Positions 1-18,539 of a stretch of 30,484 bases of DNA are shown in pieces (positions within the stretch are counted from its first letter, which is position 1; the number at the start of each line of letters is the position of its first letter). The notes beneath the pieces are model-generated. The model did not search any database, had not been told where the DNA came from, and saw nothing but the letters and a program-made list of their open reading frames with translations. Origin of the DNA: Baffinella frigidus (lineage: Eukaryota > Cryptophyceae > Cryptomonadales > Baffinellaceae); the NCBI GenBank assembly GCA_026770585.1, contig MU647568.1, positions 62,922-93,405 of the forward strand, read 5' to 3'. The position numbers and the translations under genes were made by a program.

Positions 1-110
1 CTACACCCTGCACCCTACACCCTACACCCTACACTCTACACCCTACACCCTACACCCTACACCCTACACCCTACACCCTACACCCTGCACCCTACACCCC
101 ACACCCTACA
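1..110. repeat. CCCTACA telomere-like tandem tract
   Basis: About fifteen near-perfect copies of the heptamer CCCTACA, with a few CCCTGCA and CCCCACA variants. It is C-rich on the plus strand, opposite to every interior tract. It could be a variant telomere repeat or a subtelomeric satellite. The window starts inside it, so its real extent is unknown. Confidence 0.9.
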
Positions 111-396
111 TCGCGACGTTGTCTGAGCGATAGTCCAGGAAGTCGGGTACCCACCGCATCTCTCTCAACAGGATGAAAAACAAACGGCACCTACAAGATC
201 ACGTTAGTGCTGGTAATAACGTGTTGGTATCAATAAAGGTCTCCCTGCCTCTCTCTCTCTCTCGCTCGCTCTCTCTCGCTCGCTCGCTCGCTCTCTCTGA
301 GGGGGGCCTTCGTCTCTCTTTGAGGGGGGGGGGGGCACCAAAGGGAGGAGGGTGTATGGAATCGCGGCGTTGTCTGAGCGATAGTCCAGGAAGTCG
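111..396. repeat. 35-bp direct repeat around CT/G-rich DNA
   Basis: Positions 111-145 recur at 362-396 with one mismatch (shared core TTGTCTGAGCGATAGTCC). Between the copies lie a CT tract (243-300) and G-runs (301-360). No gene is supported. Confidence 0.75.
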
Positions 397-1103: not shown

Positions 1104-1347
1104 TACCGAATCGTAAGACACCGCCCGCCCCCCCAGGATCCAACCAACCAGGCTTTGTATCAAGAACACTCCTAATTAGTAGCATACATGGCGGCCATGT
1201 TGGTAGTAACAACGGAATTAGTCAACAGTCGTGCACGTGACTTCCGGGAATGACTTTTGGAAGTAATGACTTTCGGGAATAGGGGCGGGACCAGAAGTTG
1301 TTGCGGCGGTAAAACTCCCAGCAGAATACTACGTAGATGCAGCTGGT

Positions 1348-1580
1348 TTGGGGTTTAGTGTTTAGGGTTTAGGGTTTGGGGTTTGGGGTTCGGGGTTTGG
1401 GGTTTGGGGTTTGGGGTTTGGGGTTGGGGGTTGGTGGTTTGGGGTTTGGGGTTTGGGGTTGGGGGGTTGGAGTTTGGGGTTTAGGTTGTAGGGTGTAGGG
1501 TTCAGTGTTCAGCGTTCAGTGTTCAGTGTTCAGTGTTCAGTGTTCAGTGTTCAGTGTCAGTGTTCATTGTTCAGTGTTCC
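1348..1580 (+). repeat. Degenerate TTTGGGG/TTTAGGG tract and TTCAGTG array
   Basis: A heptamer tract drifting from TTTAGGG to TTTGGGG (1348-1503), then about ten tandem TTCAGTG units. The register is mostly 7 bp. No coding content; the Phe/Gln/Cys frame here is a shadow of the repeat. Confidence 0.9.
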
Positions 1581-2090
1581 AGGTGTATGGTTTACGGTTC
1601 AGGGTTTAGGGTGCAGGGTGTATGGTGCAGGGTTCAGAGTTCAGGGTTCAGGGTGCATGGTTCAGGGTGCATGGTTCAGGATGGTTCAGGATGGTTCAGG
1701 ATGGTTCAGGAGGGTCCAGGAGGGTCCAAAATGGTTCAGGATGGTTCAGGATGGTTCAGGATGATATGGTTCAGGATGGTTCAGGATGATATGGTTCAGG
1801 ATGGTTCCGGGTGATACGGTTCAGGATGGTTCAGGATGACATGGTTCAGGATGGTTCAGGATACCCAAAGAGGACGGCGAAGGAGACGTGACTCCGGACA
1901 AGCTGCATCCGGTTCAGGAGGGTCTAGGATGGTTCAGGATGGTTCAGGATGGTCCAGGATGATATGGTTTAGGAGGAACCAGGATGGTTCAGGATGATAT
2001 GGTTCAGGATGGTTCAGGATAGTATGTTTCAGAATGGTTCAGGATGATATGGTTCAGGATGGTTCAGGATGGTTCAGGATACCCGAAGAG
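1580..2090 (+). repeat. GGTTCAGGAT minisatellite
   Basis: Many copies of the 10-mer GGTTCAGGAT, with GATATG spacers at intervals. It grows out of TTCAGGG-type heptamers at 1580-1680. It is interrupted at 1862-1918 by a segment (AGAGGACGGCGAAGGAGACG) that recurs at 2083-2140, so array expansion copied neighbouring unique DNA. Confidence 0.9.
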
Positions 2091-3420
2091 GACGGCGAAG
2101 GGGACGTGACTCCGGACAAGCTGCATCCGGTTCAGCAGCCCGTCCAGCACCTAGTGTAGGGGGGAAACGCTCCAAAGTTGACGGATTTGTACCACGAATC
2201 CAGATTGTCAACTTATGAATAGTCCGTTAACCCGACTCCGGACAAGCTGCATCCGGTTCAGCAACCCGTCCAACACCTGTCCACGCCAGGTCATTACGGG
2301 GAAGTTCAGGACGCAACGGTTCGTTTCGTGGTACTAAATGGTACGTAGCCACCCCGCCAAGTCGCGACGGTTCGTCGTTTCCACGTCCGGTCCGGATACA
2401 AAATTACCGGATCCGGGTACAAATGTTTAAAAATACTTGTACACTGAAATTTCGAGACTCCAGATAAGCTGCATCCGGTTCAGCAGCCCGTCCAGCACCT
2501 GTTGCAGGGGAAAACGCTGAAAAGTTGACGGTTTTGTACCACGAGCCCAGGTTGTCAACTTAAGAATAGTCCGTCCAACACCTGTCGAGAGTCACAACCT
2601 GAGGAATAAAAGGTCTCATAAAAGGTCAACTCAAGGCTCAAGGGCCTGTTTTAGGACCTGTATCGAGAGTACTCAAGAAGAAGAAGAATAAAGGGTCTAG
2701 CAGCACACCCTGAGGAACACACGCTCGTTTGGCTCAGCCAAGATGGAGGGGTACCGGGGGGGAGGGAGGGAGGGGGGGGGGGCGAGGGGGCGGCAGGGCA
2801 GCCAGGAAGAGGTTCAGCAGCCCGTCCAACAACTGTTGCAGGGGGGGGACGCTCCAAAGTTGACGGATTTGTACCACGAGCCCAGCTTGTCAACTTATGA
2901 ATAGTCTGTTAACCTGAAAGACGTGACTCCAGAAGAGGTGCGTTCATAACCTGGTGCAGGAGAAAGCTCTGTCTCGGTCTATTTGGGCTCACCAATGTGG
3001 CGAGCCCGGGCTCTTTCCCGCTCCAAAGTTGTCGGATTTGTACCACGAGCCCAGATTGTCAACTTAAGAATAGTCCGCCAACTCGGGAAAACTCTGTCAC
3101 AGTCTAGCCAAACGGTGGGCTACGACGGTTTCGGTGGGGCTGGAATTCAGGGTGTTACGTGACCAAATTGCACCAGAACATCCTTAAAAGTTAACTACGT
3201 CGAGGCAAGTTGACTTTTGATGAAAGGTTCGTGGCCCACCGTGTGGTTGGGCTCACCAATGTGGCGAGCCCGGGCTCTTTTCCGCTCCAAAGTTGACGGA
3301 TTTGTACCACGAGCCCACATTGTCAACTTAAGAAGAGTCCAACAAACCGGCTCCGGGCAAGGTGCCTTCGGTGCAGAAGCCTGCCCATCACCTAGTGCAG
3401 CACTCGAGGCTAGAAACCCG
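2082..3420. repeat. Diverged ~140-bp repeat cluster (AAGTTGAC...GTCAACTT)
   Basis: Several copies of a unit containing CCGGACAAGCTGCATCCGG, then AGCAGCCCGTCCA, then AAAGTTGACGGATTTGTACC, closing with GTCAACTTAAGAATAGTC. Copies start near 2105, 2231, 2456, 2805, 2932 and 3280; others are at 3838-3950, 11460-11560 and about 16350-16410. The AAGTTGAC/GTCAACTT pair forms a small inverted repeat in each. A G-run (2755-2795) could form G-quadruplex. No gene seen. Confidence 0.8.
3108..3246. mobile_element. Family D inverted-repeat element, copy 1
   Basis: 139-bp element with ends of type CCACACGGTGGGCTACGA. Other copies: 5943-6080, 10929-about 11060, 12275-12412 and 18891-19027. This one interrupts a repeat whose uninterrupted relative is at about 2970-2998 (GTCTATTTGGGCTCACC). 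It is followed by a GGGCTCACC/GGCGAGCCC hairpin (3249-3271; relative at 2985-3007). Confidence 0.85.
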
Positions 3421-3660
3421 TAGGGACATAGGGGGGTTCCTGCGGACAAGGTAACGGAAACTCGGGCATTTCCTGCCCGAAAATCCCTTCGTACCCCCCA
3501 TCCACTCGAGGCTAGAAAGGTGACTATTTTAAAAGTTTTAACTTTACAAGTCCTTTACAAGTGAAGGGATGTGAAGTAATTTTCACGTAAATAGTCTATT
3601 TCCGGCGTTGCTCCCTTATATACGGGAGCAACGTGACCACGCCTGCCCGTGACTGGTACT
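3417..3660. mobile_element. Fragments of family G (3417-3497) and H (3502-3660)
   Basis: 3417-3497 matches the GTAGGGACATAGGGGGGTTC portion of family G. At 3502 the family H end CCACTCGAGGCTAG begins, running through a 10-bp-arm palindrome (3606-3633, CGTTGCTCCC) to 3660, where a family A element starts. The far H end is missing here; the complete relative, in opposite orientation, is at 27823-28032. Confidence 0.65.
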
Positions 3661-3836
3661 AAATTCTAATAGGGCAACGGCCTAAAAATGGGGTAGTTAG
3701 GCCTACGGCATTGCCTAGGACCTCCTACCGTAGGCCGAGACTTTTTGGTCCTAGGATCCCTCGGCCTACGGTAGGAGGTCTTAGGCAATGCTGTATGCCT
3801 AACTACCCCATTTTCACGCCGTTAGCCTATGAATTT
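3661..3836. mobile_element. Family A inverted-repeat element, copy 2
   Basis: Near-palindrome with the same TAGTTAGGCCTACGGCATTG arm as copy 1. The outer sequence AAATTC...GAATTT is also inverted. It abuts the truncated family H fragment, so it appears to have inserted at or replaced its internal edge. Confidence 0.8.
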
Positions 3837-3837
3837 A

Positions 3838-4655
3838 GGTTCAGAAGCCCGTCCATCACCTGGTGCAGTGTAAAGCAACTTTAAGAACTGATCTCAAAGT
3901 TGACGGATGTGTACCACGAACCCAGAATGTCAACTTGAGAATGGTCAACACCCTCAACCAAACACCCTCGACCAACAAACCTAGTTCTAGACATCCGTCA
4001 ACTTGGAGATCAGATTTCTTCGTACCACCACGAACCCAGGCGTCTGAGGTTCCTCTGAATATTTAACAGACCCAGGAGACTCTCATTTGGGAGCTCACAA
4101 GTCAGTGCACGCACCAAAAAAACGTGGGTTCAGAGCCTTGATGGCCACTTAGCAGCCACCGGGGGCTTCACGGATACAGTCCATCTAAACTATGTGTACT
4201 AGAATCTTATCCATTTGCATTGGATTCTAACCGGATTTTCCCCGGATATCCGGGGGGGAAGGAACTCGGCCCGCTGCTAGGTGGAAGGGAATACACGGTG
4301 GCAATGTTGGTTTCGATCCGTTAGTCACGCACGTTTCTCTTGCGGTGGGTTGGTCCGGAATGTTTGCTTTAGGGTGTTGGGTCTAGGGGTTCGGGCCTAG
4401 TGGTTGTTCCAGGGGTTTTGTTGCAGGGGGTTTGGTCTAGGGTTTTGGGACTAAAGGTGTTGGTCTAGAGCTTTCAAATGGCCCCTTTCAACGTGTAGAG
4501 AGCGCGCGACTAGAGAGCGCAAAAGAAGAGACTTTCGTTGAACTTGTGACGTCGGACCATAAACCTAAGGCGTCCAAAGAGGGCTCGAACTAAGGACCTA
4601 AGGTGCTCGATACTAAATGCGCAAGACTGTTTTTGGTTGGGGTTAGGGAGCGTCC
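3838..4655. other. Gene-free stretch with inverted and degenerate repeats
   Basis: 3838-3950 is a copy of the AAGTTGAC repeat. Its GATCTCAAAGTTGACGGATG reappears inverted at 3993-4018. 4240-4255 is a perfect 16-bp palindrome CCCCGGATATCCGGGG. 4372-4470 is heavily decayed heptamer repeat. 4514-4595 is an inverted relative of 15283-15350, useful as an empty site for element X. No coding region is supported. Confidence 0.6.
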
Positions 4656-4831: not shown

Positions 4832-4924
4832 TCAAAAGCCGCGGGATTTGACCATGAAGACGACGTTGAGCGTGTGGGCGCAAATCCCGAAGGTCCCCCA
4901 GAACTGCTCCTTGGCAGTCGCGAC
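4832..4924 (-). CDS. Candidate exon alpha-1, hydrophobic (unrecognised)
   Basis: After a GCGCAG acceptor, 30 open codons in phase 0: VATAKEQFWGTFGICAHTLN, then VVFMVKSRGF, then TGA. It could instead splice out at ATG/GTCAAATCC. The middle is hydrophobic enough for a membrane segment. Two other copies of the exon start lie at 5134-5176 and 5357-5429, both behind GCAG. The third keeps the frame without a stop; the second does not. Family unknown. Confidence 0.4.
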   Translation of the reverse strand, partial: VATAKEQFWGTFGICAHTLNVVFMVKSRGF

Positions 4925-5133
4925 CTGCGCACACGCCAGTTGACTAATCCAGGCAGGCTGTGTAGGCAATTTTCCTGTGGGCAATTTTCATGGGTGGTTA
5001 ATGCTGGGGAGTTACCACCCAGGGGAAATCAACTTTCGCGATCGCTCGATGTGGTTCACCTTTGACAGCTGTTGAGACGGTTCAGTCCAACTATTTGTAA
5101 GAATAGGGTAAGTAAAACGTCGTCTTCATGGTC

Positions 5134-5176
5134 AAATCCCGAAGGTCCCCTAGAACTGCTCCTTGGCAGTGGCGAC
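5134..5176 (-). pseudogene. Exon alpha-2, broken copy
   Basis: Repeats the alpha-1 start (VATAKEQF) behind an intact GCAG acceptor, but then has TAG where alpha-1 has TGG and a second stop soon after. Beyond GGGATTTG its sequence is the reverse complement of alpha-1: positions 5116-5140 are a perfect 25-bp inverted copy of 4843-4867. The internal part of the exon has apparently been flipped. Confidence 0.5.
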
Positions 5177-5356
5177 CTGCGGTTTACTAATCCAGGCATT
5201 GCGCGCCAGTTGACTAATCCAGGCATTGCGCGGAGCGCCCCTCGCTGCCGTGCTGCAGAACCTGGTTTAGGGTTCAGGGTTTGAAGCTCTGCAGAGCGAT
5301 ACGGCCCCTCGGCGCGGCAGTCTTCATTTCTCTCTCTCTCTCTCTCTCTCTCTCCC

Positions 5357-5429
5357 GACGGGTCTGTGTTAGGGTAGGTCCACTGCACATCCCGAAGGTC
5401 CCCCAGAACTGCTCCTTGGCAGTGGCGTC
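5357..5429 (-). CDS. Exon alpha-3, partial copy beside telomere-like DNA
   Basis: Frame DATAKEQFWGTFGMC remains open to the CT microsatellite at 5321-5356. Its acceptor TGTGCAG lies just downstream (sense direction) of a CCCTAAACCCCAAACC tract (5440-5466 on plus), so the intron end contains telomere-like DNA. Probably an incomplete exon duplicate. Confidence 0.35.
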
Positions 5430-5942
5430 CTGCACACCAGATGGTTTGGGGTTTAGGGTTTAGGGTTACCCCTTCGATCATGTACGTTCAGACTCGAAGA
5501 TGCTTTGGTGCGTTGGTGCTTTGTATTACACTCACATCGAAGGCCACGCCCACCTCACTCTTGAGGAGATGGAACAATCTGAAACCCACCACAGTTGACT
5601 AATCCGGGCAGCCTTTGCACCAGGCCGGTAACGAATCCGGACAGGCTTTGTAGAGCAGGTCCCTTTTTAATTGGCACTCCAAAAGGTTTCTAGTTCAGAC
5701 TAGAAACCTACCACGGTTGACTAAACCGGGCAGGCTTTGTACGTGAGAGAGTTAAATGGCATTTTGCGCCCTGCGTCTTTCTATCATTTTCCCTTGAAAT
5801 TGGCAAAAGTTGCCGGAAATGCCCACAAATAATTAAAGTTGACCCTCACGGTAACCGCAAGATCTGTCTCGCGGTTACCGGATAAGACGACTACCCCTCC
5901 GCCGTAGTTGTACCAGGCCGGTAACAAATCCAGGCAGGCTTT

Positions 5943-6080
5943 CCACACGGTGGGCTACGAGGGTTTCGGGATCCCTAGATTTAGCGGTAACGTGACCAAA
6001 TTTGCATGAGAAAATCCTTAAAGCTGACTGCCCACAGGGTAGGTTGACTTTTGATGAAAGGTCCGTAGTCCACTGTGTGG
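5943..6080. mobile_element. Family D element, copy 2, inside a repeat module
   Basis: 138 bp, ends CCACACGGTGGGCTACGA and the reverse complement of a one-mismatch version. Left flank CAGGCTTT and right flank GTACCAGG rejoin to CAGGCTTTGTACCAGG, the intact module seen elsewhere. The insertion boundary is therefore precise, with no obvious target duplication. Confidence 0.85.
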
Positions 6081-6161
6081 GTACCAGGACGGTAACTAAT
6101 CCGGGCAGGTTTTGTGAGTGGAGCGTTGACTGAACCGCACAGGCTTTGCGCCAGGACGGTA

Positions 6162-6287
6162 CCACGCCAGAGGGCTCGATGGAAACCGACGCCTTATCCA
6201 CGTCAGATCTGACGTCGTTAACTTAAGTATTCAAGGGATTTCCCCTGAAAGATGTCAAACGTGGATGTTTTGAGCCCTCTGGCGTGG
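6162..6287. mobile_element. Family E element, copy 1 (TA target)
   Basis: 126 bp with perfect 18-bp terminal repeats CCACGCCAGAGGGCTCGA and an internal palindrome ACGTCAGATCTGACGT. TA lies on each side. Removing the element and one TA restores GACGGTAACCAATCC, like the module at 6080-6095. This suggests a 2-bp TA duplication, as in Tc1/mariner-type elements. Other copies: 10798-10923 and 11285-11403. Confidence 0.85.
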
Positions 6288-6385
6288 TAACCAATCCGCG
6301 CAGGCTTTTGTACCAGGACGGGCGATGATTAGTCAACAATAGCGGGGTTACTCGCGATTAAGAAAACGCACCGCCTCTGGGGGCA

Positions 6386-6600
6386 TCCTATGCTCCTAGA
6401 GATAGCCTACCATAGGGCGGTGTCTAGGGATAGCCTATCACGCCTATCACATAGGCTATCCCTAGGAGCATAGGACGACCCTAGATAATGTTTTGCAATA
6501 GGGTCGTTCCTACGGATATGTCGGTCTGGGGGGTGTAGGGCTCAGCTCTGTAGGGCTCTGTAGGGCTCAGCTCTGTAGGGCTCAGCCCTAGGGCGGTGCG
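6386..6600. repeat. Inverted repeat and TGTAGGGCTC repeat
   Basis: 6386-6475 folds with TCCTATGCTCCTAGAGATAG pairing with CTATCCCTAGGAGCATAGGA. 6532-6594 repeats CTCAGCTCTGTAGGG three times, containing the heptamer TGTAGGG. Confidence 0.7.
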
Positions 6601-6701
6601 GGTCCTGAATGTCGAGAAACCCCTGAAGCAGGAGCATCCGCAACTTTGCTTCATTCAGTTATAGTAAATAACAAGTTGACGTTTTTGGGGGTGAGTTGAC
6701 T

Positions 6702-6756
6702 TTAGAGAAACCCTTTTTGAAATACATTGTCTGAGATGAAGTCCCAGGCGCACAAC
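6702..6756 (-). CDS. Candidate exon after TTTCGGG tract
   Basis: Downstream (sense strand) of the CCCGAAA tract, acceptor GACGACAG precedes an open frame LCAWDFISDNVFQKGFL and TAA. No family recognised; short, so uncertain. The link to the exon at 7136-7216 across the tract is plausible but phase is unproven. Confidence 0.25.
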
Positions 6757-6764
6757 CTGTCGTC

Positions 6765-7142
6765 AGGCTTCGGGTTTCGATTTTCAGGTTCCGGGTTTAC
6801 CTCTTTAATGAATTCAGTAATCAGTTTCGGGATCCGGGTTTCGGGTTTCGGGTTTCGGGTGTCTGGATCCTGGTTTCGGGTTTCGGGGGGTTCGGGATCC
6901 GGGTTTCGGGATTCGGGTTTCGGGTTTTTGGATCCTGGTTTCGGGTTTTGGGTTTCGGGATCCGGGTTTCGGGATTCGGGTTTCGGGTTTCTGGATCCGG
7001 GTTTCCGGGTTTCGGGTTTCAGGGTATCGGGTTTCGGGATCTGGGTTTCAGGTTTTCGGGTTTCAGGATCCGGGTCTCGGGTTTTCGGGTTTCGGGGTCC
7101 GGGATTCTGGATCCGGGTTTCGGGTTTCGGGGTTTCGGGTAA
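6765..7142 (+). repeat. TTTCGGG tract with GGATCC spacers
   Basis: A long heptamer-based tract of TTTCGGG units broken by GGATCCGGG and GGATCCTGG. Same 7-bp register and strand polarity as the TTTAGGG tracts, with C replacing A. The repetitive Gly-Phe and Pro-Asn-Pro frames on the two strands are shadows. Confidence 0.9.
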
Positions 7143-7216
7143 AAGAAAACCGCTTTCTCCGAGAAGTCCCCAGAGGCCTCCATTCGCTGAATCGCGGGGA
7201 GAATCACGCCCCACAC
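7136..7216 (-). CDS. Candidate exon epsilon-1, VWGVILP
   Basis: Behind acceptor GGTGCGCAG, phase 0, 27 codons: VWGVILPAIQRMEASGDFSE, then KAVFFYP, running straight into the CCCGAAA tract. The exon start is repeated behind the same kind of acceptor at 7283-7318 (VWGVILPVSKLT) and 7678-7707 (VWGVILH). Triplication of the acceptor plus the first 7 codons is the pattern seen for other exons here. Product unknown. Confidence 0.4.
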
Positions 7217-7282
7217 CTGCGCACCAACTTAAGTACACTGCAAATCCAGAGATTTTGTAAAAGTCAATTCACCCACAGAATC

Positions 7283-7318
7283 TGTCAACTTAGAAACGGG
7301 GAGAATCACGCCCCAGAC
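7283..7318 (-). pseudogene. Exon epsilon-2, partial duplicate
   Basis: Repeats GCGCAG/GTCTGGGGCGTGATTCTCCCC-type start of the 7136-7216 exon, then diverges. Matches only the exon edge and acceptor. A third copy of the edge is at 7678-7707. Confidence 0.4.
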
Positions 7319-7375
7319 CTGCGCACCGAGACAAAAGTCAAAGTGGAACCTCCGTCAACTTAAGCAAGAGTGGAT

Positions 7376-7439
7376 CCTCCGTTAAGTGAAGTAGCGCACC
7401 TCAGCTCAGCTCTCGGTGCGCTACTGAGGTTAACGGAGG
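7376..7439. repeat. Hairpin element next to a splice donor
   Basis: Arms of about 25 bp with CCTCCGTTAA and AGTAGCGCACC matching their inverse around a CTCAGCTCAG loop. It lies 28 bp into the putative intron after the donor at 7467. It may be a small MITE. Confidence 0.65.
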
Positions 7440-7467
7440 GCTCGGACGCGGTGCACAGCGTGCTCAC

Positions 7468-7545
7468 CTGCCAACACACCCTCTCCTCAGAACACTCCGA
7501 CACGACACGACCCGAGTGACCCCTCAGAGAGCACACAGGAGGATC
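7468..7545 (-). CDS. Candidate exon zeta with good splice sites
   Basis: Exactly 26 codons between acceptor GCGCTCTTACAG and donor GCAG/GTGAGC, open in phase 0: DPPVCSLRGHSGRVVSECSE, then ERVCWQ. Both splice sites fit the eukaryotic consensus well. Cys-containing and not hydrophobic. Located between candidate exons beta and epsilon on the same strand. Unrecognised. Confidence 0.4.
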
Positions 7546-7591
7546 CTGTAAGAGCGCTGCGCACCGAACGTCGAGAGTGAGACGTCTCAAC

Positions 7592-7812
7592 GCAAAAGTG
7601 GAACCTCCGTTAACTTAAGTTGGCAAAAGTGGAACCGCCGTTGACTTAAGTTGGCAAAAGTGGAACCGCCGTTGACTCAAGCAACGGTGGAGAATCACCC
7701 CCCAGACCTGCGACGGGCCCGCCTCTGATACGTTCAAAAGTGATCTTCTTCAAAAGTCATCTTCTTCAAAAGTCATCTTCAAAGGTCAAAAGTCGTCTTC
7801 AAAGTGGAACAA
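7592..7812. repeat. 31-bp tandem repeat and CTTCAAAAGTCAT repeat
   Basis: Three 31-bp units start at 7592, 7623 and 7654 (GCAAAAGTGGAACCGCCGTT core). 7733-7812 has short tandem copies of TCTTCTTCAAAAGTCA. No coding evidence. Confidence 0.85.
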
Positions 7813-7878
7813 AAGTTGACATCAGCTTTGATAAGGTGCATACGAGAGGAGCGTTGTCTTGTGGTCGAGGTAACCCTC

Positions 7879-8208
7879 CACACTGCGGGTGGCGAAGGGA
7901 TTTTCGGTGGCTGAGCCACCGAGAATCGATTGGGATATCCGTAGGAACAACGCTATGTCCCTGCGGATTTCATGTGGAAACTCTTTAAATTTAAAAAACT
8001 TTGGCTATTAAGTTTACTACACAGAACGATCTTTACATGTAATATTAAAGCAAATATGTAGTAATTTTTATTGAAATTCAATTTTTTGAATTAAAAGAGT
8101 TTCCACATTAGATTGCCTTCCGTGGGGTCTTGTGGGTTAATCCATTATTGGATTATTCATTATTGGATTATTAATCCATTAATCCATTATTGGATTATGG
8201 TGGATTAT
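7879..8208. mobile_element. Family G fragment, AT-rich element T1 and TAATCCA repeat
   Basis: 7879-7968 is a diverged family G fragment. 7973-8107 is an AT-rich element with ends TGTGGAAACTCTTT and its inverse, containing TACTACAC and GTAATATTAAAG; its interior resembles the element at 10328-10478. 8137-8208 repeats palindromic TAATCCATTATTGGATTA. Confidence 0.7.
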
Positions 8209-8277
8209 TCACGAAATTCCTGAGTAATCAGCCGTGTGTCTACGTCCATTCCTTGCATGTTCGGGTTTTCATTGCGG

Positions 8278-8545
8278 TTTTGTAAAGCACTATCTCCCCT
8301 CGGGCGCTTGTAAAGCACTATTCCCCATTAGGGTGTTTGTAAAGCAAATATTTCTCTTAGGCCGTACCACGATGACGACAAGGAGGGCTCTGGAAGAAAT
8401 AGTGGGATGGGGCTGTCAATGTAAATTTGTCAAGCACTATCTCCCCTCAGGGCGTTTGTAAAGCACCATTCCCCATAGGGCGTTTGTAAAGCAAATAGTA
8501 CCACGATGGAGACGAGGAGGGCGGTGGAGAAGAGCACTTGGAACG
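8278..8545. repeat. Two ~140-bp tandem units
   Basis: Units near 8279-8398 and 8427-8540 share TTTGTAAAGCAC, CATTCCCCAT, GTACCACGATG and GGAGGGC. On the minus strand these continue the beta exon frame (ALLVSIVV in one, ALLVVIVV in the other), so the duplicated unit includes an exon end. Confidence 0.75.
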
Positions 8546-8579
8546 AGACCCACAGCGAAAATAGCACCGAGCGCGGCAA
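8430..8579 (-). CDS. Candidate exon beta, hydrophobic
   Basis: After acceptor CCCTGACAG, where the preceding intron is CCCTAAACCC repeat, a phase-0 frame reads LPRSVLFSLWVSFQVLFSTA, then LLVSIVV, and continues to TGA at 8430. A donor at GTG/GTACTA (exon 8502-8579) would give 26 codons ending in phase 0. Strongly hydrophobic, probably a membrane segment. Phase fits splicing from the 10483-10757 exon and into exon alpha. Unrecognised. Confidence 0.45.
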   Translation of the reverse strand: MPRSVLFSLWVSFQVLFSTALLVSIVVLFALQTPYGEWCFTNALRGDSA

Positions 8580-9262
8580 CTGTCAGGGTTTGGGGGTTAG
8601 GGTTTAGGGTTTAGGGTTTAGACGCAAAGCGAGAACAGCGCCGTGCGCGGTAACTGTGATTTGAGGTTTGGGGTTTGGGTTTTAGGGTTGAAGGTTGAGG
8701 GTTGAGGGTTGAGGGTTTAGGTTTTGGGGCTTAGGCCCAGAGCGAGAACAGCACCGAGCACGGCAACTGCATTTTGTTTGTCAAGTTATTATGATATTGC
8801 AAAGGTGGGGAAGAGCACTTAGAAGGCAACCCAGAGGGTTTGGGTTTTAGGGTTGAGGGTTGAGGGTTGAGGGTTGAGGGTTTAGGGTTTAGACCCACAG
8901 CGAGAACAGCACCGTGCGCGGCAACTGTTAGGGTTGGGGGTTGGGGGTTTGGGTTTTAGGGTTTAGGGTTTGGGGTTTAGGGTTGAGGTTTTGGGGTTTA
9001 TGATTTATGGTGCATGGTTTAGGGTTTAGGGCTCAGGTTTTGGGGTTTAGACCCATAGCGAGAACAGCACCGTGCGCGGCAGCTCTTAGGGTTTAAAGTT
9101 TAGGGTTTAGGGTTTATGTTTTGGGGTATAGGGTTTATGGTTTATGGTTTATGGTGTATGGTGTATGGTGTATGGTGTATGGTTTAGGGTTTAGGGTTTA
9201 GGGTTTAGGGTTTAGACCCAGAGCGAGAACAGCACCGTGCGCGGCAACTGCATTTTTTTGAA
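8547..9262. repeat. Array of beta exon-edge copies separated by telomere-like tracts
   Basis: Six copies of a ~38-bp box (GCGAGAACAGCACCGTGCGC then GGCAACTG) begin near 8547, 8620, 8734, 8891, 9049 and 9214. Each pair is separated by TTTAGGG, TTGAGGG or TTTATGG tracts of variable length. On the minus strand each box is a near copy of the beta exon start with its CAG acceptor. The copies at 8620, 8734, 8891, 9049 and 9214 run into CCCTAAA DNA or stops and are probably non-functional. Confidence 0.85.
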
Positions 9263-9327
9263 AAGTCGTTTGTGATATTTAACAGTGCAGGTTGCGAGCC
9301 GTCTGTATCCAAACCCCTAGACTTACT

Positions 9328-9452
9328 ACCCCAGAGTCTTCGAGGGGGTCGCCAAAAATTCAATTCCCCTTCAAGGCAGTGGTTTTCAAGAGTCAACAAC
9401 CGTGTCCTGGCACGGTTTTAAAAAATCAACCCCCTCCTACACTCTGGCGTGG
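9328..9452. mobile_element. Family F element, copy 1
   Basis: About 125 bp, ending CTCTGGCGTGG with TA outside; the left end is damaged (TACCCCAGAG). The interior matches the element at 12794-12919 in opposite orientation (ATTTTTGGCG, CAAGGCAGTGG, GAGTCAACAACCG). It shares the terminal CCACGCCAGAG with family E but has a different interior. Confidence 0.75.
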
Positions 9453-9539
9453 TACTGTCGGTTTTTGCCGAAACTGGAGCAGGCCGACTCAGAAAATTCC
9501 TTCTTCGTTTTCGTTTTCTTCCTGAGAGAGACAGTGGTG

Positions 9540-9640
9540 AATAAATGCCAGCACCATGCGCGGAGCCTGTATTTTATCGGTCAGGTTATTTGTGATATTT
9601 AACAGTGCAGGTTGGCAGCCTGATTTATTTCTTAAAAACA
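9540..9640 (-). pseudogene. Diverged seventh beta-type exon edge
   Basis: The sequence TTTGTGATATTTAACAGTGC is shared with the intron side of the box at 9214. The minus frame after acceptor AAATACAG reads APRMVLAFIHH, comparable to LPRSVLFSLW. It lacks further support as a working exon. 9453-9540 holds nothing recognisable. Confidence 0.35.
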
Positions 9641-9673
9641 AGGCCCACCGACCTAAAAACAAAGAAGAAGAGT

Positions 9674-10130
9674 TCAGGGTTGAGGATTCTGGCTGAGGGT
9701 TCAGGGTTCAGGGTCCAGGGTGCAGGGTTCAGGTTCCAGGGCTCAGGGTTCAGGGTCCAGGGTCCAGGGGTTATGCGGGGTTAGGGTGAGGGGTTTATTA
9801 GGGTTCCGGGTTCAGGGTTCAAGGTTTATTAGGGGTTAGGAGAGTTGGTCATGAGTGTTTCCTAGGGGCTAGGTGAGTTGTTTATTAGTATGTAGTAAAT
9901 ACTAATAAACAAAATACTAATAAAGTAAATAGTATGTAGTAAATACTAATAAAGTATTTGCTCTCACCTTCTGCTGAGTCTGGTCTCAGGGTTCAGGGTT
10001 CAGGGTTCAGGGTTCAGGGTTCAGGGTTCAGGGTTCAGGGTTCAGGGTTCAGGGTTCAGGGTTTATTAGGGGTTCAGGGTTCAAGGTTTGGGGTGTAGGG
10101 TGAGGTGCTCTCACCTTCTGTTTATTAGTG
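9674..10130 (+). repeat. TTCAGGG arrays and TTTATTAG palindromes
   Basis: 9674-9880 is degenerate TTCAGGG. 9879-9959 holds TTTATTAGTAT/ATACTAATAAA palindromes. 9986-10066 is a nearly perfect array of about 12 TTCAGGG units. The array is bracketed by copies of GCTCTCACCTTCTG (9960-9973 and 10107-10120), the splice-donor edge of the exon at 10483-10757. Confidence 0.9.
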
Positions 10131-10174
10131 TTTATTAGGGGCTAGGTGAGTTAGTTATTAGCGTTTGCTCTCAC

Positions 10175-10231
10175 CTTCTGTTGAGTCTTGACCGGGAGCA
10201 GCGCCAGCGTGCCCGTAACGAAAAAGTAGCA
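10175..10231 (-). pseudogene. Partial duplicate of the gamma exon end
   Basis: Nineteen codons, CYFFVTGTLALLPVKTQQK, ending at donor AAG/GTGAGAGC. Compared with the 10483-10757 exon, ATC becomes GTT (Ile/Val) and GCC becomes GTC (Ala/Val), while other changes are silent. A hairpin element begins at 10236, just upstream in the sense direction, and no acceptor precedes the frame, so it is probably non-functional. Confidence 0.5.
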
Positions 10232-10235
10232 CACG

Positions 10236-10478
10236 TTTCACCTAAAGTCAACTGGCCGGCTCCCTGGCTAGCAGTGCAGTTGACTTGATGTGAAATGCTC
10301 TGGGCTAGAAGATGCCATCGAGTTGAAGAGCTCATAGGAAAACGGTTTTAATTTTTTAAAAATGGATTCATTCAAAATTACTACACGAATGCTTTAATAT
10401 TACTAGTAAAACTCATCATGTGTAGTAGATTTCATTGCCAGAAATTTTAAAATTAAAACCGGTTTCCTATGAGAGCTC
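10236..10478. mobile_element. Hairpin U and AT-rich element T2
   Basis: 10236-10295: TTTCACCTAAAGTCAACTG pairs with CAGTTGACTTGATGTGAAA. 10328-10478: 151-bp AT-rich element with GAGCTC, then ATAGGAAAACGGTTTTAATT arms, and interior TACTACAC like T1. T2 abuts the donor of the gamma exon, so it lies at the very start of that intron. Confidence 0.75.
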
Positions 10479-10482
10479 TCAC

Positions 10483-10757
10483 CTTCTGTTGGGTCTTGGC
10501 CGGGAGCAGCGCCAGCGTGCCGGTGATGAAAAAGTAGCACCCTGCAACCAGAGGGTCAAGCTCGGGAGTGGCCAAAAGTAGGATTTCCACAGAGGCTGCC
10601 TCTATGAAAACACCAGCACCCACTCTCCCCGCGTTGATCCTCAGCGCCACAACACAAGAAACTAGGGTGGAGCTGGCGAAACAGAGTCTCTCTATTATTT
10701 CGTAAAACGAATCGACCGGGAGCAGCGCCAGCGTGCAGGTAATGAAAACGTAGCACC
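10483..10757 (-). CDS. Exon gamma, multi-pass membrane protein fragment
   Basis: 275 bp between acceptor TTCGCAG and donor AAG/GTGAGAGC, with 91 uninterrupted codons ending in phase 0. Hydrophobic stretches in order: CYVFITCTLALLPV; TLVSCVVALRI; GAGVFIEAASVEILLLA; LVAGCYFFITGTLALLPA. First and last are versions of the same segment, so the exon has an internal duplication. Four copies of the donor edge GCTCTCACCTTCTG occur on plus at 9960, 10107, 10167 and 10475. The ALRI...YFxIT pattern loosely recalls polytopic transporters, but I do not recognise a family. Confidence 0.55.
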
Positions 10758-10797
10758 CTGCGAATGAAACGTGCGCATGAAAAAGTAATTAAAATGT

Positions 10798-10923
10798 CCA
10801 CGCCAGAGGGCTCGACGGAAACCGACGGCTTATTCACGCCAGATCTGGCGTCGTTGACTTTAGGTTGCAGGGCATTTCCCCTGAACATTGTCAAAAATGG
10901 ATGTTTCGAGCCCTCTGGCGTGG
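10798..10923. mobile_element. Family E element, copy 2, in putative intron
   Basis: 126 bp with the same perfect terminal CCACGCCAGAGGGCTCGA as copy 1 and internal palindrome CGCCAGATCTGGCG. It lies 40 bp upstream (sense) of the gamma acceptor, so it would be intronic. Confidence 0.85.
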
Positions 10924-10928
10924 GTGGT

Positions 10929-11403
10929 CCACTCGGTGGGCTACAAGGGTTTCGTTGACCCCGGATTCCGGGGTGTCGCGTGACCAATTTGCATTAAAAA
11001 AATCCTTAAAGTTAATTGTCTGCAATCAAGTTGACTTTTGATGCAATTAAGTTGACTTTTGATGCAGTTAACCCTGTTTGTGTGAAAATTACCACACAAT
11101 ATTTTTTTTACTTGTAAAGGACTTGTAAACTTAAAACTTTTAAAATAATCCCTCTTCCAGTCTCGAGTGGCGTACGCCGTAGGACTCCTGTGACCAAAAA
11201 ATCCTAGGATTTTGGCCTACAGTAGGAGGTCCTAGGCAATGCCGTAGGCCTAACTACCCCATTTTTAGTCTGTTACCCTATTAGATTGATCGAGGGAAAC
11301 CGACGCCTTATCCACGTAAGATCTGACGTGGTTGACTTAAGGATTCAAGGGGTTTCCCTTGAAAGATCTCAAAAGTGGATGTTTCGATCATCCTGGCGTG
11401 GTG
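10929..11403. mobile_element. Nested remnants of D, H, A and E
   Basis: 10929-about 11060 is family D with a repeated AAGTTGACTTTTGATGCA end. 11090-11170 is a family H half ending CTCGAGTGG. 11176-11283 is the right half of family A. 11285-11403 is family E lacking its left end. The junctions abut, suggesting successive insertions with deletions. Confidence 0.7.
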
Positions 11404-11436
11404 GCCTGTTCAGATGTCCCAGCGTTGGTTCAGTCT

Positions 11437-11600
11437 GTTCGAGTTCACCAACTTGGTGAGCCCGGGCTCTTCCCCGCTCCAAAGTTGACGGATTTGCACC
11501 GCAACCCCAGCATGTCAACTTGAGAATAGTCGGTCAACTTAAGAAAAGTCTGACAGTCAACCCGAGTGAGGCAGAGCTAGACCAGCCCGGTACGAACCCG
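11437..11600. repeat. AAGTTGAC-type repeat copy with hairpin
   Basis: Starts with hairpin TTCACCAACTTGGTGA, then GAGCCCGGGCTCTTCCCCGC and AAAGTTGACGGATTTG as in the 2082-3420 cluster. Nothing coding is supported from 11404 to 11683. Confidence 0.7.
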
Positions 11601-11683
11601 GGAAAAGCAAACGAACAACCCCTTGAAGCAGAGCCACGAAGGATTCTTAGAGGGGGTATTCCAAGTCCAAACTTGGAGCCATT

Positions 11684-11913
11684 CCACACAGCGGACTTCG
11701 GAGGGATTTTGAATAACCCCTAAGCGATAAGACCTAGGACCCTACGGTAGGCATCCCGTAGGGACATAGGGGGGTTCCTACGGATAAGGTAACGGAAAGG
11801 CCGCAGCCGTAGGACCCTACGGTAGGCATCCCGTAGGGGCATAAGGGGCTTCCTAAGGTAACGGAAACTCGGCCCAAAATGGGCCGAAAATCCCTTCGAA
11901 GTCCGCTGTGTGG
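11684..11913. mobile_element. Family G element with internal duplication
   Basis: 230 bp with ends CCACACAGCGGACTTCG and its inverse. Between them a ~70-bp block (GACCCTACGGTAGGCATCCC onward) is present twice in tandem. A shorter undivided relative in opposite orientation is at 25635-25796. Fragments lie at 3417, 7879 and 17895. Confidence 0.8.
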
Positions 11914-12126
11914 AGTCCAAAAGTGTCAACTTTCAGGGAAGAAGGGCCCGTGCTGCCCGAAAAACCTGCGACAATTGACTTTTGAAACACCCACGTCAAC
12001 AATCCTGGATGGCTAGGACTCGCACCTGGAGCGTCTGCTCTGAATGTATTCAATGAGGAGCCCGGATTAACTGAGGCAGAGCTAGGTATCCGTCGAGGGA
12101 CTCGCACCCATGAGCGGCACAGCTAC

Positions 12127-12274
12127 CACGCGACGATACCTTGCACCTCAAATCGACAGTGGACGAATTCAGGTTGGGTCTAATCAGTACTAACCCACGG
12201 ACGAATTCCGTCCTCTGTGTACCAGGAATAATAGAAAGACACAGTCGATTTGAGGTGCAGGGTATCGTCGCGTG
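12127..12274. mobile_element. Family L element
   Basis: 148 bp with about 31-bp terminal inverted repeats starting CACGCGACGATACC and containing GCACCTCAAATCGAC. Non-coding. It abuts family D at 12275. The pair is flanked by GGACTCGCACCCATGAGCG (12098-12116) and a one-mismatch copy (12416-12434). Confidence 0.8.
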
Positions 12275-12412
12275 CCACACGGTGGGCTACGAAGGTTTCG
12301 GTGGGGCTGGAATTCAGGGTGTTACGTGACCAAATTGCACAAGAAAATCCTTAAAGTTAATTGCCTCAAGGCAAGTTGACTTTTGATGAAAGGTTCGTAG
12401 TCCACCGTGTGG
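12275..12412. mobile_element. Family D element, copy 4
   Basis: 138 bp, nearly identical to 3108-3246 (CGGTGGGGCTGGAATTCAGG core). With element L it separates the exon-end copy GGACTCGCACCC at 12416 from its duplicate at 12098. Confidence 0.85.
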
Positions 12413-12490
12413 GTAGGACTCGCACCCATCAGCGACCAGTTCCAGACGGTGAACGTCGAAAACATGTTCCAGCCTCGCATCTCGATGCAT
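12413..12490 (-). CDS. Candidate exon theta-1, LEHVF
   Basis: 26 codons from ATG: MHRDARLEHVFDVHRLELVA, then DGCESY, stopping at the family D element. Its end (GTGCGAGTCC) recurs at 12098-12116 and about 12013. Two other copies of LEHVF (12958-12984 and 13262-13291) are followed by a GTGAGAGGG donor instead of coding sequence. An acceptor CGCAG lies upstream. Unrecognised, charged rather than hydrophobic. Confidence 0.35.
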
Positions 12491-12660
12491 CCCCCCCCCT
12501 GCGATAAATAATAAAACTATTAGTTAATCTATAAAAATAAATAATAAAACTATTAGTTGATATATAAAACTATTAGTTAATCTATGATAAAACTGTTAGT
12601 TAACCTAAACCTATTAGGTAATCTATTATTTGACCTATTATAAAAGGTGTTGTTGAGTTT
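12459..12660. repeat. AT-rich direct repeat P, copy 1
   Basis: Matches 13259-13460: both run from AACATGTTCCAGC through GCGATAAATAATAAAAC and CTATTAGTTAATCTA repeats to a TTTGACCTATTA motif. In the sense (minus) direction this AT-rich block lies upstream of the LEHVF exon, so it is an intron duplicated with its exon. Confidence 0.8.
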
Positions 12661-12793
12661 GTTGAATGAGAGCCACAAGGTGGCTAAAGTTGACACGTCA
12701 GATTCGCACGAAAGAAAGAATGGTTCCTGAAGGGAACCTCAGGTTGCTGAGGCTCCAGTTGGCAAAAAGAAAAATAGCCAACGCTCGCACGAG

Positions 12794-12919
12794 CCACGCC
12801 AGAGTGCAGGAGGGCGTTGATTTTTTTTAACCGCGTCTGAAAGCGGTTGTTGACTTTTGAAAACTACTGCCCTGAGGAGGAATTGACTTTTGTTGACCCC
12901 TGCCAAGGCTCTGGCGTGG
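12794..12919. mobile_element. Family F element, copy 2
   Basis: 126 bp bounded by CCACGCCAGAG and its inverse. Interior AGCGGTTGTTGACTTTTGA matches copy 1 inverted. The right end plus flank (GGCGTGGAGCCTTCTTGG) reappears at 13218-13290, so flanking DNA was duplicated after insertion. Confidence 0.8.
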
Positions 12920-12957
12920 AGCCTTCTTGGAGGAAACAAAGAAAGTTTCCCTCTCAC

Positions 12958-12984
12958 GAAAACATGTTCTAGCTCTGTTTCACT
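12958..12984 (-). CDS. Exon end theta-2 with GTGAGAG donor
   Basis: Minus frame SETELEHVF followed by GTGAGAGGGAAAC, the same donor type as exon gamma. Its copy at 13262-13291 reads DRDAGLEHVF/GTGAGAGGG. The exon start is not defined. The intron flank (12913-12957) is duplicated at 13217-13261. Confidence 0.3.
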
Positions 12985-13540
12985 CGGGTTGACTAAATCG
13001 ATTGTGTCCTTTTATTCGACCCAAATCTTCAAAAGTCTACTTTTTCAAGGGAATTTATCAACTTTTGGCGAACCGTTGCGATTTGGGCTCACCATTTTGG
13101 TGAGCCCGATTCAAGTGGAGCAGAGCGGTCGGTCGGTTACCTTATCCGTGATCATTTCCCAACAAAACTTTAAAAGTCCCTTTTATTCTGTTCGCATGGG
13201 TAGCCTCGTGTGGTCTGGCGTGGAGCCTTCTTGGAGGAAACAAAGAAAGTTTCCCTCTCACGAAAACATGTTCCAGCCCCGCATCTCGATCGCATCCTCC
13301 CCCCTGCGATAAATAATAAAACTGTTAGTTAATCTATTAAAATAAATAATAAAACTATTAGTTGATCTATTAAAATATTAGCTAATCTACAAGAAAACTA
13401 TTAGTTAACCTAGACCTGTTAGTTAATCTGTTGTTTGACCTGTTAGAAAAGGTGGTGTTTTTTATTTGACCTATTATCATTGGTCAAATATTTGACCTTT
13501 TATCACAGGTCAAATAACAGATCTAATCATAGGTGGTTCT
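12985..13540. repeat. Duplicated flank Q/P2, hairpin and TTTGACC repeats
   Basis: 13086-13113 is a GGGCTCACC/GGTGAGCCC hairpin like those at 2985 and 3249. 13217-13290 repeats 12912-12978. 13310-13460 is the second AT-rich P copy. 13465-13516 repeats TTTGACCTATTATCA in both orientations. No other exon than 13262-13291 is seen. Confidence 0.7.
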
Positions 13541-13653
13541 TTTTTTTGGACACGATACTCATCCGGTCCCCTCGGCGCCGATCGTGAGGTTTTCCCGAAA
13601 GTACAAACCCTGGGTGTGTACTTTCGGGTCAGAACAAACCCTGGGTGTGTACT

Positions 13654-13725
13654 TTCCGCGCTGAACCGGTGCAGCCAACAGTCGTTCGTTCGTGGCTGGC
13701 AAGTGACCTTGTTCCAGCGATCCAC
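13654..13725 (-). pseudogene. Exon delta-4, partial CNKVTCQPRT copy
   Basis: Frame VDRWNKV, then TCQPRTNDCWLHRFSAE. The KVTCQPRT core and following residues match the delta copies. The upstream part has diverged. Adjacent repeats of ACAAACCCTGGGTGTGTACT (13602 and 13634 regions) lie just downstream in sense. Confidence 0.4.
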
Positions 13726-13868
13726 ACCAGAAGGGTGTCAGCGGGCGCGGTTCGGCAGAGCAGCAGACACAAGGCGGAGCCTGGCCTGTCTCTCTCTCTT
13801 CATAGAGGACCAACCCCCGGTTGGCTGATCCTCACTTTTCCCGAAAACACAAACCCAGCGCGGTGCAG

Positions 13869-13940
13869 TCAAAAGTCGTTCGTTCGTGGATGGCACGTGA
13901 CCGTGTTGCAGAGATCCCCCAGCGCGGTGCAGTCAACGGC
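13869..13940 (-). pseudogene. Exon delta-3, diverged copy
   Basis: Frame AVDCTALGDLCNTVTCHPRT, then NDF and TGA. Aligns to delta-1 at VD..AL...GD.CN.VTC.PRT. No convincing acceptor seen. Confidence 0.4.
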
Positions 13941-13949
13941 CAGCAAACA

Positions 13950-14278
13950 ATGCTTTCGACTATTGTATCACTCAACTCAAGGCTAAAGGGCCTGATTTAG
14001 GACCTGTGCTGAGAGTAATAAAGAAGAGAAGAGAAGAAACAATGCTTTCTCTGCAGATCCTTTCTACGGAAGGGCGAGGTGTTCGCCTACGGTGGGCGAA
14101 ATCGAAACCTAAAGGACCTAAAGGACCAGTCCACAGTCGTCCGTGCCACCAGCCCTCAGAGTGAGATCAAATCGCCTTTTCCAATTCCCTTGATTTGCAC
14201 TGGAGCGAGCCGGAATCCGGCGACCTGTGGTACAAATCAGGGGGCTCGACCAGGACGAATTGCTCTCTCTCTCTGAGG
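13950..14278. repeat. Intergenic/intron stretch with CTAAAGGACC repeat
   Basis: 14050-14131 holds TTCTACGGAAGGGCG followed by CCTAAAGGACCTAAAGGACC. This dispersed repeat recurs at 17735-17815 and, more distantly, 25020-25100. 13950-14050 and 14132-14278 show nothing I can support as coding. Confidence 0.6.
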
Positions 14279-14448
14279 CCGCGCCCGGAGGCGAAGAGGT
14301 CCACAAAATCGTGTAAATTTAACTCCCGTGTTGCATCTTTCTATTATTTGTGCCATGATCTTTATCATGATTTTTATCATGGACGATAGAAATACTCAAT
14401 GCGGATTTACGATCACGATTTTGTGGACCCTTTCGCCTCCGGGCGTGG
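14279..14448. mobile_element. Family W inverted-repeat element
   Basis: 170 bp with about 35-bp arms: CCGCGCCCGGAGGCGAA, then GAGGTCCACAAAATCGTG, closing with the inverse. The interior is AT-rich with TTTATCATGA repeats. A fragment of one end (CCGCGCCCGAAGGCGGAGGG) is at 15756. Confidence 0.8.
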
Positions 14449-14568
14449 TTTGGTGGTGCCTACGGTAGGACATCCCTAGGCGGGTAGGAATTTCCTAGCG
14501 GTGAATAGATGGCTTGTACACTTTAAAATGTACATCTGGTGCAGATTACTACAGGCTGGAACCCCAGT

Positions 14569-14671
14569 TTAAGCTGCTACAGGCTGGAAGCGGAGGGACG
14601 TGGCCTTGTTGCAGACATCTCCCATGGACGCCAGAGCGATCTTGTCAACGCTCAGCCAGATCTGAAACGTC
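14569..14671 (-). CDS. Exon delta-2
   Basis: One base plus 33 codons: TFQIWLSVDKIALASMGDVC, then NKATSLRFQPVAA. Relative to delta-1 the conserved part differs mainly at silent third positions (TTC/TTT, AAA/AAG, GCC/GCT) plus Thr/Ser and Val/Ala, as expected for former or present coding DNA. Preceded by GGCAG. Confidence 0.4.
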
Positions 14672-14845
14672 CTGCCACGTTTTTCGGGTCCATAGGACCC
14701 TACCGTAGGACACCCCTAGGCAGGTAGGAATTTCCCAGCGGTGGATAGATGGCTTGTGTACATCTGGTGCAAATTACTACAGGCTGAAACCCCGGTTTAA
14801 GCTGCTACAGGCTGGAAGCGGAGTGACCTTGTTGCAGATATCAAT

Positions 14846-14945
14846 TCAGTCAACAATCGTCCGTGGCTGGCACGTGACCTTGTTGCAGACATCTCCCATG
14901 GACGCCAGGGCGATTTTGTCAACGGTCAGCCAGATCTGGAACGTC
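14846..14945 (-). CDS. Exon delta-1, acceptor next to telomere-like tract
   Basis: Acceptor CCCGCAG immediately follows the CCCTAAACCC tract (sense strand). One base, then 32 codons: TFQIWLTVDKIALASMGDVC, then NKVTCQPRTIVD and TGA. A donor at AAG/GTCACG is possible but the sister copy lacks GT there. Three relatives lie in 13654-14671. Unrecognised. Confidence 0.45.
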
Positions 14946-14950
14946 CTGCG

Positions 14951-15096
14951 GGTTTAGGGTTTAGGGTTTAGGGTTTAGGGTTTAGTGTTCAAGGTTCAGG
15001 GTTCAGGGTTCAGGGTTCAGGGTTCAGATTTGAGGGTTTAGGGTTTAGGGTTTAGGGTTGAGGTTTTAGGGTCTAGGGTATAGGGTATAGGGTTTA
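14951..15096 (+). repeat. Telomere-like insertion with 14-bp target duplication
   Basis: Degenerate TTTAGGG/TTCAGGG/TATAGGG tract, flanked by exact direct repeats TGGAACGTCCTGCG at 14937-14950 and 15097-15110. On the minus strand this 14-mer is CGCAGGACGTTCCA, i.e. the splice acceptor and first bases of exon delta-1. The tract was apparently added at a staggered break in that acceptor, leaving a complete acceptor on the exon side. Confidence 0.85.
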
Positions 15097-15109
15097 TGGA
15101 ACGTCCTGC

Positions 15110-15391
15110 GCCCAGAGTCGCATGTTCACTTCAGCCGCGAGACCCTTCTTCTTCTTGATTATTCTCGATACAGGTTCTAGATAGGCCCTTAAGCCTTGAG
15201 TTGAGTCATACAAAAGTCTATGCGCCTTAAGAAACGGGCCCGCCTCGGAAATGTGAGCTGTGCCACTTCAGTGCTTAGTTCCGAGCCCTCTCTGGACGCC
15301 TTCCCTTAAGTTGATGGTCCGACGTCATAAGTTCAGTAAAAGTCTCTTCCTCTCTCTTCAGCCGTGAGACCTTCACAATCGAGCCCTCTCT
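15110..15391. other. Non-coding stretch with duplicated block
   Basis: 15283-15350 (GAGCCCTCTCTGGACGCC, then AAGTTGATGGTCCGACGTC) is repeated downstream as 15380-15391 plus 15544-15600, where element X splits it, and inverted at 4514-4595. No coding evidence. Confidence 0.6.
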
Positions 15392-18461: not shown

Positions 18462-18539
18462 CCCCCGCCCTCGTCCTTTGGGGGGGGGCGCTGTTTATTG
18501 ACGGACAGCTCACTGGGGTTTGTGTCTTCTACTCTCCCT

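Follow-up and report, generated by a model that had tools for sequence, protein, structure and literature searches.

Partial copies of exon edges and telomere-like tracts in the introns of a Baffinella frigidus gene

Results

A ten-exon gene and its product

The window analyzed here is the whole of a 30,484-nucleotide stretch of the genome of the cryptophyte Baffinella frigidus (GenBank assembly GCA_026770585.1, contig MU647568.1, positions 62,922 to 93,405; C1088:62922-93405 in the 382 Mb assembly to which all genome-wide counts below refer). It carries a spliced multi-exon gene on the minus strand, the visible part of which runs from 17065 to 339, and the introns of this gene hold partial copies of exon edges together with tracts of telomere-like repeats (TTTAGGG and related units). 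All features of the gene given below are on the minus strand. The exons were read by eye and, with corrected boundaries, number ten and have GT-AG junctions: x1 (the 17 kb exon, 17065-16905), A (14.9 kb, 14945-14879), C (12.4 kb, 12498-12426), B (10.5 kb, 10541-10483), D (8.5 kb, 8579-8502), E (7.2 kb, 7216-7151), F (4.8 kb, 4924-4853), G (2.1 kb, 2150-2083), H (1.3 kb, 1342-1292) and I (0.4 kb, 402-339). Beyond the GT the donors are otherwise degenerate, and the introns have a mean length of about 1.77 kb.

When the joined translation of the ten exons was used as a search query, it matched residues 6-258 of a public protein, P0001, with an identity of 253/253. P0001, a protein of 284 residues whose longest contig is 1079 bp, was the sole match among 40 candidates. 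As its contigs are at most 1079 bp whereas the exons span about 16.7 kb, P0001 should derive from a complementary DNA or a processed copy. Hence, for this single gene, an expressed-type product is known that is joined exactly across the tracts. An earlier note on this DNA, made from the letters alone, had proposed exons A, B, D, E and F; these are real, since together with the five others they translate to the P0001 residues. The same match supports its inference that the tracts leave a usable splice signal. The product gave a weak Pfam match to FAR-17a/AIG1 (PF04750, E=4.4e-4, 20.2 bits, under the cut-off of 24.5) and, by sequence, no match to solved structures.

Partial copies of exon edges

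Edge copies were sought by local blastn of the exons against the window gene region. Partial copies were found for eight of the ten exons (A, C, B, D, E, F, G and I) and none for exons x1 and H. Throughout the gene, copies having only the acceptor lie upstream of the true exon and copies having only the donor lie downstream, as is the geometry of a segment duplicated in place with its copies flanking filler DNA.

Two exons give the clearest structures. The tract beside exon A (14940..15110) carries at either end one unit of a perfect 13-nt repeat, CGCAGGACGTTCC, and one of these units includes the acceptor of the exon. At exon D an array (8578..9250) consists of five copies of AG plus the first 34 nt of the exon, with the real exon last; the copies alternate across 8620-9250 with TTTAGGG-type tracts, which are CCCTAAA-type in the sense strand. 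Exon A also has a near-complete second copy (14595..14675, by blastn alignment) in which the donor is GC instead of GT. Exon B has an acceptor-edge copy at 10716..10761 (exon positions -3..42) and donor-edge copies at 10167-10232 and 9960-9981 (9960..10232) with a TTCAGGG tract between them. The B copy at 10167-10232 lacks an acceptor AG, so that both near-complete copies, of A and of B, are without one splice site. The acceptor-edge copy of exon C (13261..13459) carries about 155 nt of upstream intron and is 89% identical over 199 nt.

Local blastn placed acceptor-edge copies of exon E at 7297-7327 (97%) and 7689-7712 (92%), and a TTTCGGG-type tract (6819..7141) lies about 10 nt beyond the donor of that exon. 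Acceptor-edge copies of exon F lie at 5385-5437 and 5133-5198 (5116..5437), accompanied by an inverted 26-nt piece (5116-5141) that spans the 3' end of the exon. By eye, an ATTTG/CAAAT inverted repeat marks the junction of this piece, which is a signature of template switching. Exon G has five acceptor-edge copies (2234..3932) whose identities, from near to far, are 96, 87, 88, 80 and 74%; a TTGAC-type interspersed element, itself present in several copies, lies between them. The intron between G and H (1341..2088) is mostly tract plus one exon G donor-edge copy at about 1864-1920, and the acceptor of exon H abuts the tract. Finally, the tract that comes after a copy of exon I (110-145, within 1..145) is G-rich in the sense strand.

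The perfect duplication at exon A is 13 nt long and those at exons D, E, B and G are about 31-46 nt. Tabulated copy identities drop with distance from the true exon at G, at E and downstream of A and B. Ten of 18 copies end at a GT, against 33% expected, the exon D copies among them being non-independent. We also observed that acceptor-edge copies often end at exon positions 41-46 (B, C, F, G, I), 19-22 (E, G) or 34 (D), and that exon F copies of the window gene and of the paralogue described below share nearly the same end residue.

The earlier note had described extra edge copies at five exons. All five have them, and the set is wider, with further copies at exons C, G and I. Its statement that every copy includes the acceptor or donor fails for 8804-8836 (exon positions 25-57), 110-145 (7-42) and 12957-12973 (27-43). 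Its further claim, that a tract lies between or beside the copies, holds for the clean duplicate-tract-duplicate structures at exons A and D. In contrast, no tract separates copy from exon upstream of exon B, at exons C and E, or upstream of exon G.

A paralogue and unrelated genes with similar structures

Genome-wide, 15 matches to P0001 were found (17 candidates scored). The two beyond the window both lie on contig C130 and represent a paralogue. The paralogue exons were assigned solely by similarity, and a search for a transcript-type protein gave none at E<=10. It has three more copies of the exon A start, several donor-edge copies of E and of the pieces of D, and copies of F, and long C-rich tracts lie directly against several of its junctions. 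When the paralogue locus (C130:420001-428500) is set against 8502-10541 of the window, one of its introns falls, by similarity, at residues 135/136, versus 125/126 for the intron in the window gene. The segment between these two positions is multiply copied in both paralogues, and at the level of sequence the shift looks like intron sliding.

A search with the Pfam Cpn60/TCP1 profile gave 14 exon matches on four contigs (C94, C6, C1202 and C39); the exon limits, derived from the profile matches and the AG/GT close to them, are approximate. On C94, C6 and C1202 these exons have acceptor-edge copies on their upstream side or donor-edge copies on their downstream side. No edge copies accompany the C39 matches. 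The window gene, the C130 paralogue and the four Cpn60/TCP1 contigs make up the six genes counted below.

The telomere-like unit is abundant in this genome. Exact (TTTAGGG)4 has 30,621 match starts (14831+15790), against 1+1 for the control. For comparison, the assembly of Baffinella sp. CCMP2293 is reported at 534.5 Mbp with a GC content of 53.9% and 41.1% repeats (PMC9756366).

Repeats that bracket tracts

The readable loci hold 95 tract arrays, of which 14 were dropped owing to flanks that were short or mostly masked. With the fuller masking and a repeat score of >=30, direct repeats bracket 18 of the 81 usable tracts; of 2375 intervals drawn at random from tract-free parts of the same loci, they bracket 213 (one-sided Fisher P=3.5e-4). 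The exon A tract, with its perfect 13-nt repeat, is a telomere-like array bounded by non-repeat DNA, and the clearest bracketed tracts elsewhere have repeats of 22-71 nt. Tracts therefore show about a 2.5-fold excess of bracketing repeats against a background in which local duplication is pervasive. A null built from mismatched flanks (19/81 versus 0.21% of 2867 pairs) overstated the effect and was rejected; random intervals from the same locus are the fair control.

Tracts are C-rich in the sense strand

From 4832 to 15110 all 10 called arrays read C-rich in the sense strand, as do 16 of the 17 over the whole visible part of the gene, the exception being 1-117, beside the exon I copy. Over the six genes the count is 53 of 61 arrays, with 8 G-rich, where arrays within one gene are not independent. 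The C-rich to G-rich ratios are 16:1 in the window gene, 11:3 in the paralogue and 20:3, 3:1, 1:0 and 2:0 on the four Cpn60/TCP1 contigs, which gives a C-rich majority in 6/6 genes, two of them having just 1 and 2 arrays. The orientation is thus non-random, although the rule stated earlier, that tracts are always C-rich in sense, does not survive the 8 contrary arrays.

C-rich tracts contain 0.85 AG and 0.54 GT per 100 nt; inverted, they would contain 8.9 and 14.7. The window gene background is 5.3 and 5.4. The orientation bias could be due to this near absence of AG and GT from C-rich tracts, and such scarcity explains it more simply than do the CTAA-type words that had been suggested to make the insertions tolerable.

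Tract ends at exon edges

In the window gene a tract end lies within 15 nt of 5 of the 20 exon edges. Random placements gave a mean of 0.28 and none of 3000 reached the observed count; when tracts were called less strictly and rotations served as the null, 14 of 2000 did. Over the six genes the figure is 18 of 59 edges, against a rotation mean of 4.2 and 0/2000 reaching it. By gene, the counts are 5/20 in the window gene, 6/12 in the paralogue, 4/11 on C94, 1/8 on C6, 2/4 on C1202 and 0/4 on C39.

Genome-wide, (CCCTAAA)2 followed after 0-10 nt by GCAG has 730 match starts versus 259 for GACG, one place being able to count twice. After correction for word frequency (ratio 1.33 in the readable loci) the excess is about 2.1-fold. 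Some of the GACG matches listed themselves follow CAG, which lowers the GCAG excess.

Duplication at exon edges compared with introns

Local direct repeats cross 9 of the 20 exon edges; elsewhere in the unmasked introns they cross 28.6% of positions (P=0.088). With the edge copies left out the background is 20.8% and P=0.013, a value that becomes P=0.46 if a twofold detection bonus is granted to the slowly evolving exons. In the 17.2-30.4 kb part of the window the background is 11.0% (P=1.3e-4). The proposal that this duplication is restricted to exon edges was rejected as not clearly so, given 9/20 against 28.6%, or 20.8% without edge copies.

Other features of the window

Several families of short inverted repeats resembling miniature inverted-repeat transposable elements (MITE-like) occur at 614-781, 3669-3830, 18341-18462, 24.2-25.4 kb and other sites, some with GGTACCTCGCTCATAAGAAA ends. 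The MITE pattern gave 0 matches in viral and prokaryote contigs, a search from which records of the window's own genome may have been excluded. Two related serine-rich open reading frames (MDFVASFLNIPPNPRRT...) lie on the minus strand at 20.4-21.0 kb and 29.2-29.97 kb. The latter has two homologues beyond the window (78% and 63%; E<=10), both from Baffinella frigidus. Outside the gene studied, the window also has a degenerate telomere-like tract, about 900 bp long (26190-27110).

Discussion

The reading we favor, with a probability of about one half, is that these introns grow by recurrent in-place duplication plus insertion of telomere-like tracts, MITE-like elements and other DNA, probably through repair of staggered breaks, and that splicing filters the outcome. 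Fill-in of a staggered break, or of a pair of offset nicks, near a splice junction would duplicate roughly 13 to 70 nt. Filler inserted between the two copies could be unique DNA, a simple repeat, a MITE-like element or telomere-like repeats. If the duplication spanned an acceptor or donor, the intact exon would retain one working edge and the other copy would become an intronic fossil. Repeated events at the same junction, together with tandem expansion of the copy-plus-filler unit, could then build shells of edge copies. C-rich-in-sense tracts, having almost no AG or GT, would be tolerated even at a junction, whereas the inverse orientation would be dense in cryptic sites.

In-place duplication accounts for the geometry of the copies, which pieces inserted from elsewhere would not be expected to give. 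Staggered-break repair would explain why repeat length varies and why the filler is mixed, and also the inverted piece (5116-5141). We infer break repair as the origin, a telomeric source for the tracts and selection behind their strand bias; the simplest cause of this bias would be selection against filler rich in AG and GT next to junctions. Telomerase or CST may take part, and by analogy CST-Pol alpha fill-in might be coupled to telomeric insertion at breaks. The earlier note had proposed insertion of telomeric DNA at staggered breaks that duplicates splice sites. The product joined across tracts, the non-random orientation, the bracketing excess and the clean structures at exons A and D support this; as stated it is not borne out, in view of duplication that is not specific to tracts, of the 8 contrary arrays and of the variant units. 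In its most far-reaching form, telomerase and CST-Pol alpha at staggered breaks would repeatedly insert telomeric DNA at exon edges genome-wide, fill-in duplicating the splice site and splicing selecting the orientation free of AG and GT. Telomere repeats would then be a major intron-building material that supplies functional 3' splice-site context and even lets introns slide between paralogues. We consider this form unlikely.

Several results weigh against the favored reading or against the tract-specific proposal of the earlier note. Exon edges are duplicated at best modestly above the intron background. A tract-specific mechanism is hard to reconcile with the many edge copies that bracket MITE-like or unique DNA rather than tracts, or with the 213 random non-tract intervals that are also repeat-bracketed, and on C94 none of 14 tracts is bracketed. 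Repeat sizes range from 13 to about 200 nt, so that more than one mechanism may be at work, and the paralogue exon A and F arrays fit plain tandem duplication without insertion. The tract units include TTCAGGG, TTTCGGG and ATCCTGAACC types. Such variants are not what a telomerase writing TTTAGGG would make, and many tracts thus appear to have mutated and expanded locally. Exons D and F do not follow the identity gradient. Taken singly, the excess of tract ends at edges is not significant for C94 (106/2000), C6 (531/2000) or C39 (0/4 edges). In the readable loci CAG occurs in 40 of 93 of the 30-nt windows at C-rich tract ends versus a background of 36.5%, which is no clear excess. The G-rich mirror of the GCAG test (1196 GCAG) is confounded by TGCAGGG units and was set aside.

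Plain tandem duplication is the least unlikely of the other explanations. Unequal exchange or replication slippage across splice sites would copy the edges, and telomere-like minisatellites would expand independently within the copies with no insertion at all. The regular units of 177 nt at the paralogue exon A and about 210 nt at its exon F, the 158-165 nt spacing of the exon D array and the pervasive local duplication among random intervals (213/2375) all fit. However, by eye the DNA upstream of the first copy is unlike the filler at exons A, B, E and D, which suggests insertion, and in the pooled genes tract ends lie at junctions above chance. We regard as doubtful the idea that exon edges are insertion sites of MITE- or introner-like mobile elements whose target duplications are unusually long, the tracts being one such element or later growth inside one. 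It is favored by the filler at exon G, which is interspersed, with 17 further matches in the 108.7 kb of readable sequence, several in the same array, and by the palindromic elements that adjoin the donor of exon B and, by eye, exon C. Against it, the filler upstream of exon B and the second filler at exon F have no other match in the same 108.7 kb, and the variable duplications of 13 to over 45 nt seen here contrast with the 3-9 bp given for introners (PMC9860276).

It is improbable that the tracts are kept by positive selection rather than tolerance because CCCTAAC-like branch-point or pyrimidine-like words aid splicing. Three acceptors in use (14945, 8579 and 1342) come immediately after tracts, and a tract end adjoins 18 of 59 edges, but tracts abut donors also (for example at exons E and G) and the other 41 edges are more than 15 nt from any tract end. 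An assembly error or a pseudogene, which the highly repetitive sequence and the many partial exon copies might suggest, is hardly credible given that a protein encoded on separate short contigs is identical at all 253 residues and that a similar anatomy recurs on unlinked contigs.

In-place duplication with insertion, our favored reading, has partial precedents. Mammalian interstitial telomeric sequences are reported to have been inserted at double-strand breaks, with the target site duplicated in 6/130 rodent and 4/25 primate loci (PMC2246262). These resemble the tracts described here in placing telomeric repeats inside chromosomes, some with target duplication, whereas the Baffinella tracts frequently lie against splice junctions, follow the orientation of the gene, occur repeatedly at a single junction and have long duplications and many variant repeats. 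Intron gain in Daphnia is ascribed in a review to staggered-break repair (PMC3443670), and there too the result is spliced. In our case it is existing introns that appear to be lengthened, with edge copies remaining as fossils. Introners are likewise insertions in protist genes with duplications able to overlap splice sites, those of Amoebophrya being given as 3-5 nt (PMC7789003). The duplications here are longer, from 13 nt to about 31-46 nt and beyond, and the fillers are mixed and include telomere-like tracts. Small tandem duplications of <100 bp are reported to arise in human and mouse cells when CST-Pol alpha fills in breaks that have 3' overhangs (PMC8355091). The likeness lies in that size and in the filling of staggered breaks by a complex that replicates telomeres. 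The abstract and introduction of that report mention no telomeric filler, and for Baffinella the complex is a suggested mechanism. Short telomere motifs have also been described in plant genes (PMC3022908). Our literature search, whose coverage left out most subscription journals, found no paper on telomere-like tracts bracketed by exon-edge copies. The components are each known, and within the literature searched the combination, its scale and the strand rule appear to be new.

Single, old events are the usual basis for inferring how introns grow and how break repair affects genes. In the present case one gene carries a series of duplicated splice sites, and with the cases on unlinked contigs it allows the order, size and orientation of events to be read. 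The strand bias suggests a rule, namely that only filler poor in AG and GT survives beside a splice junction.

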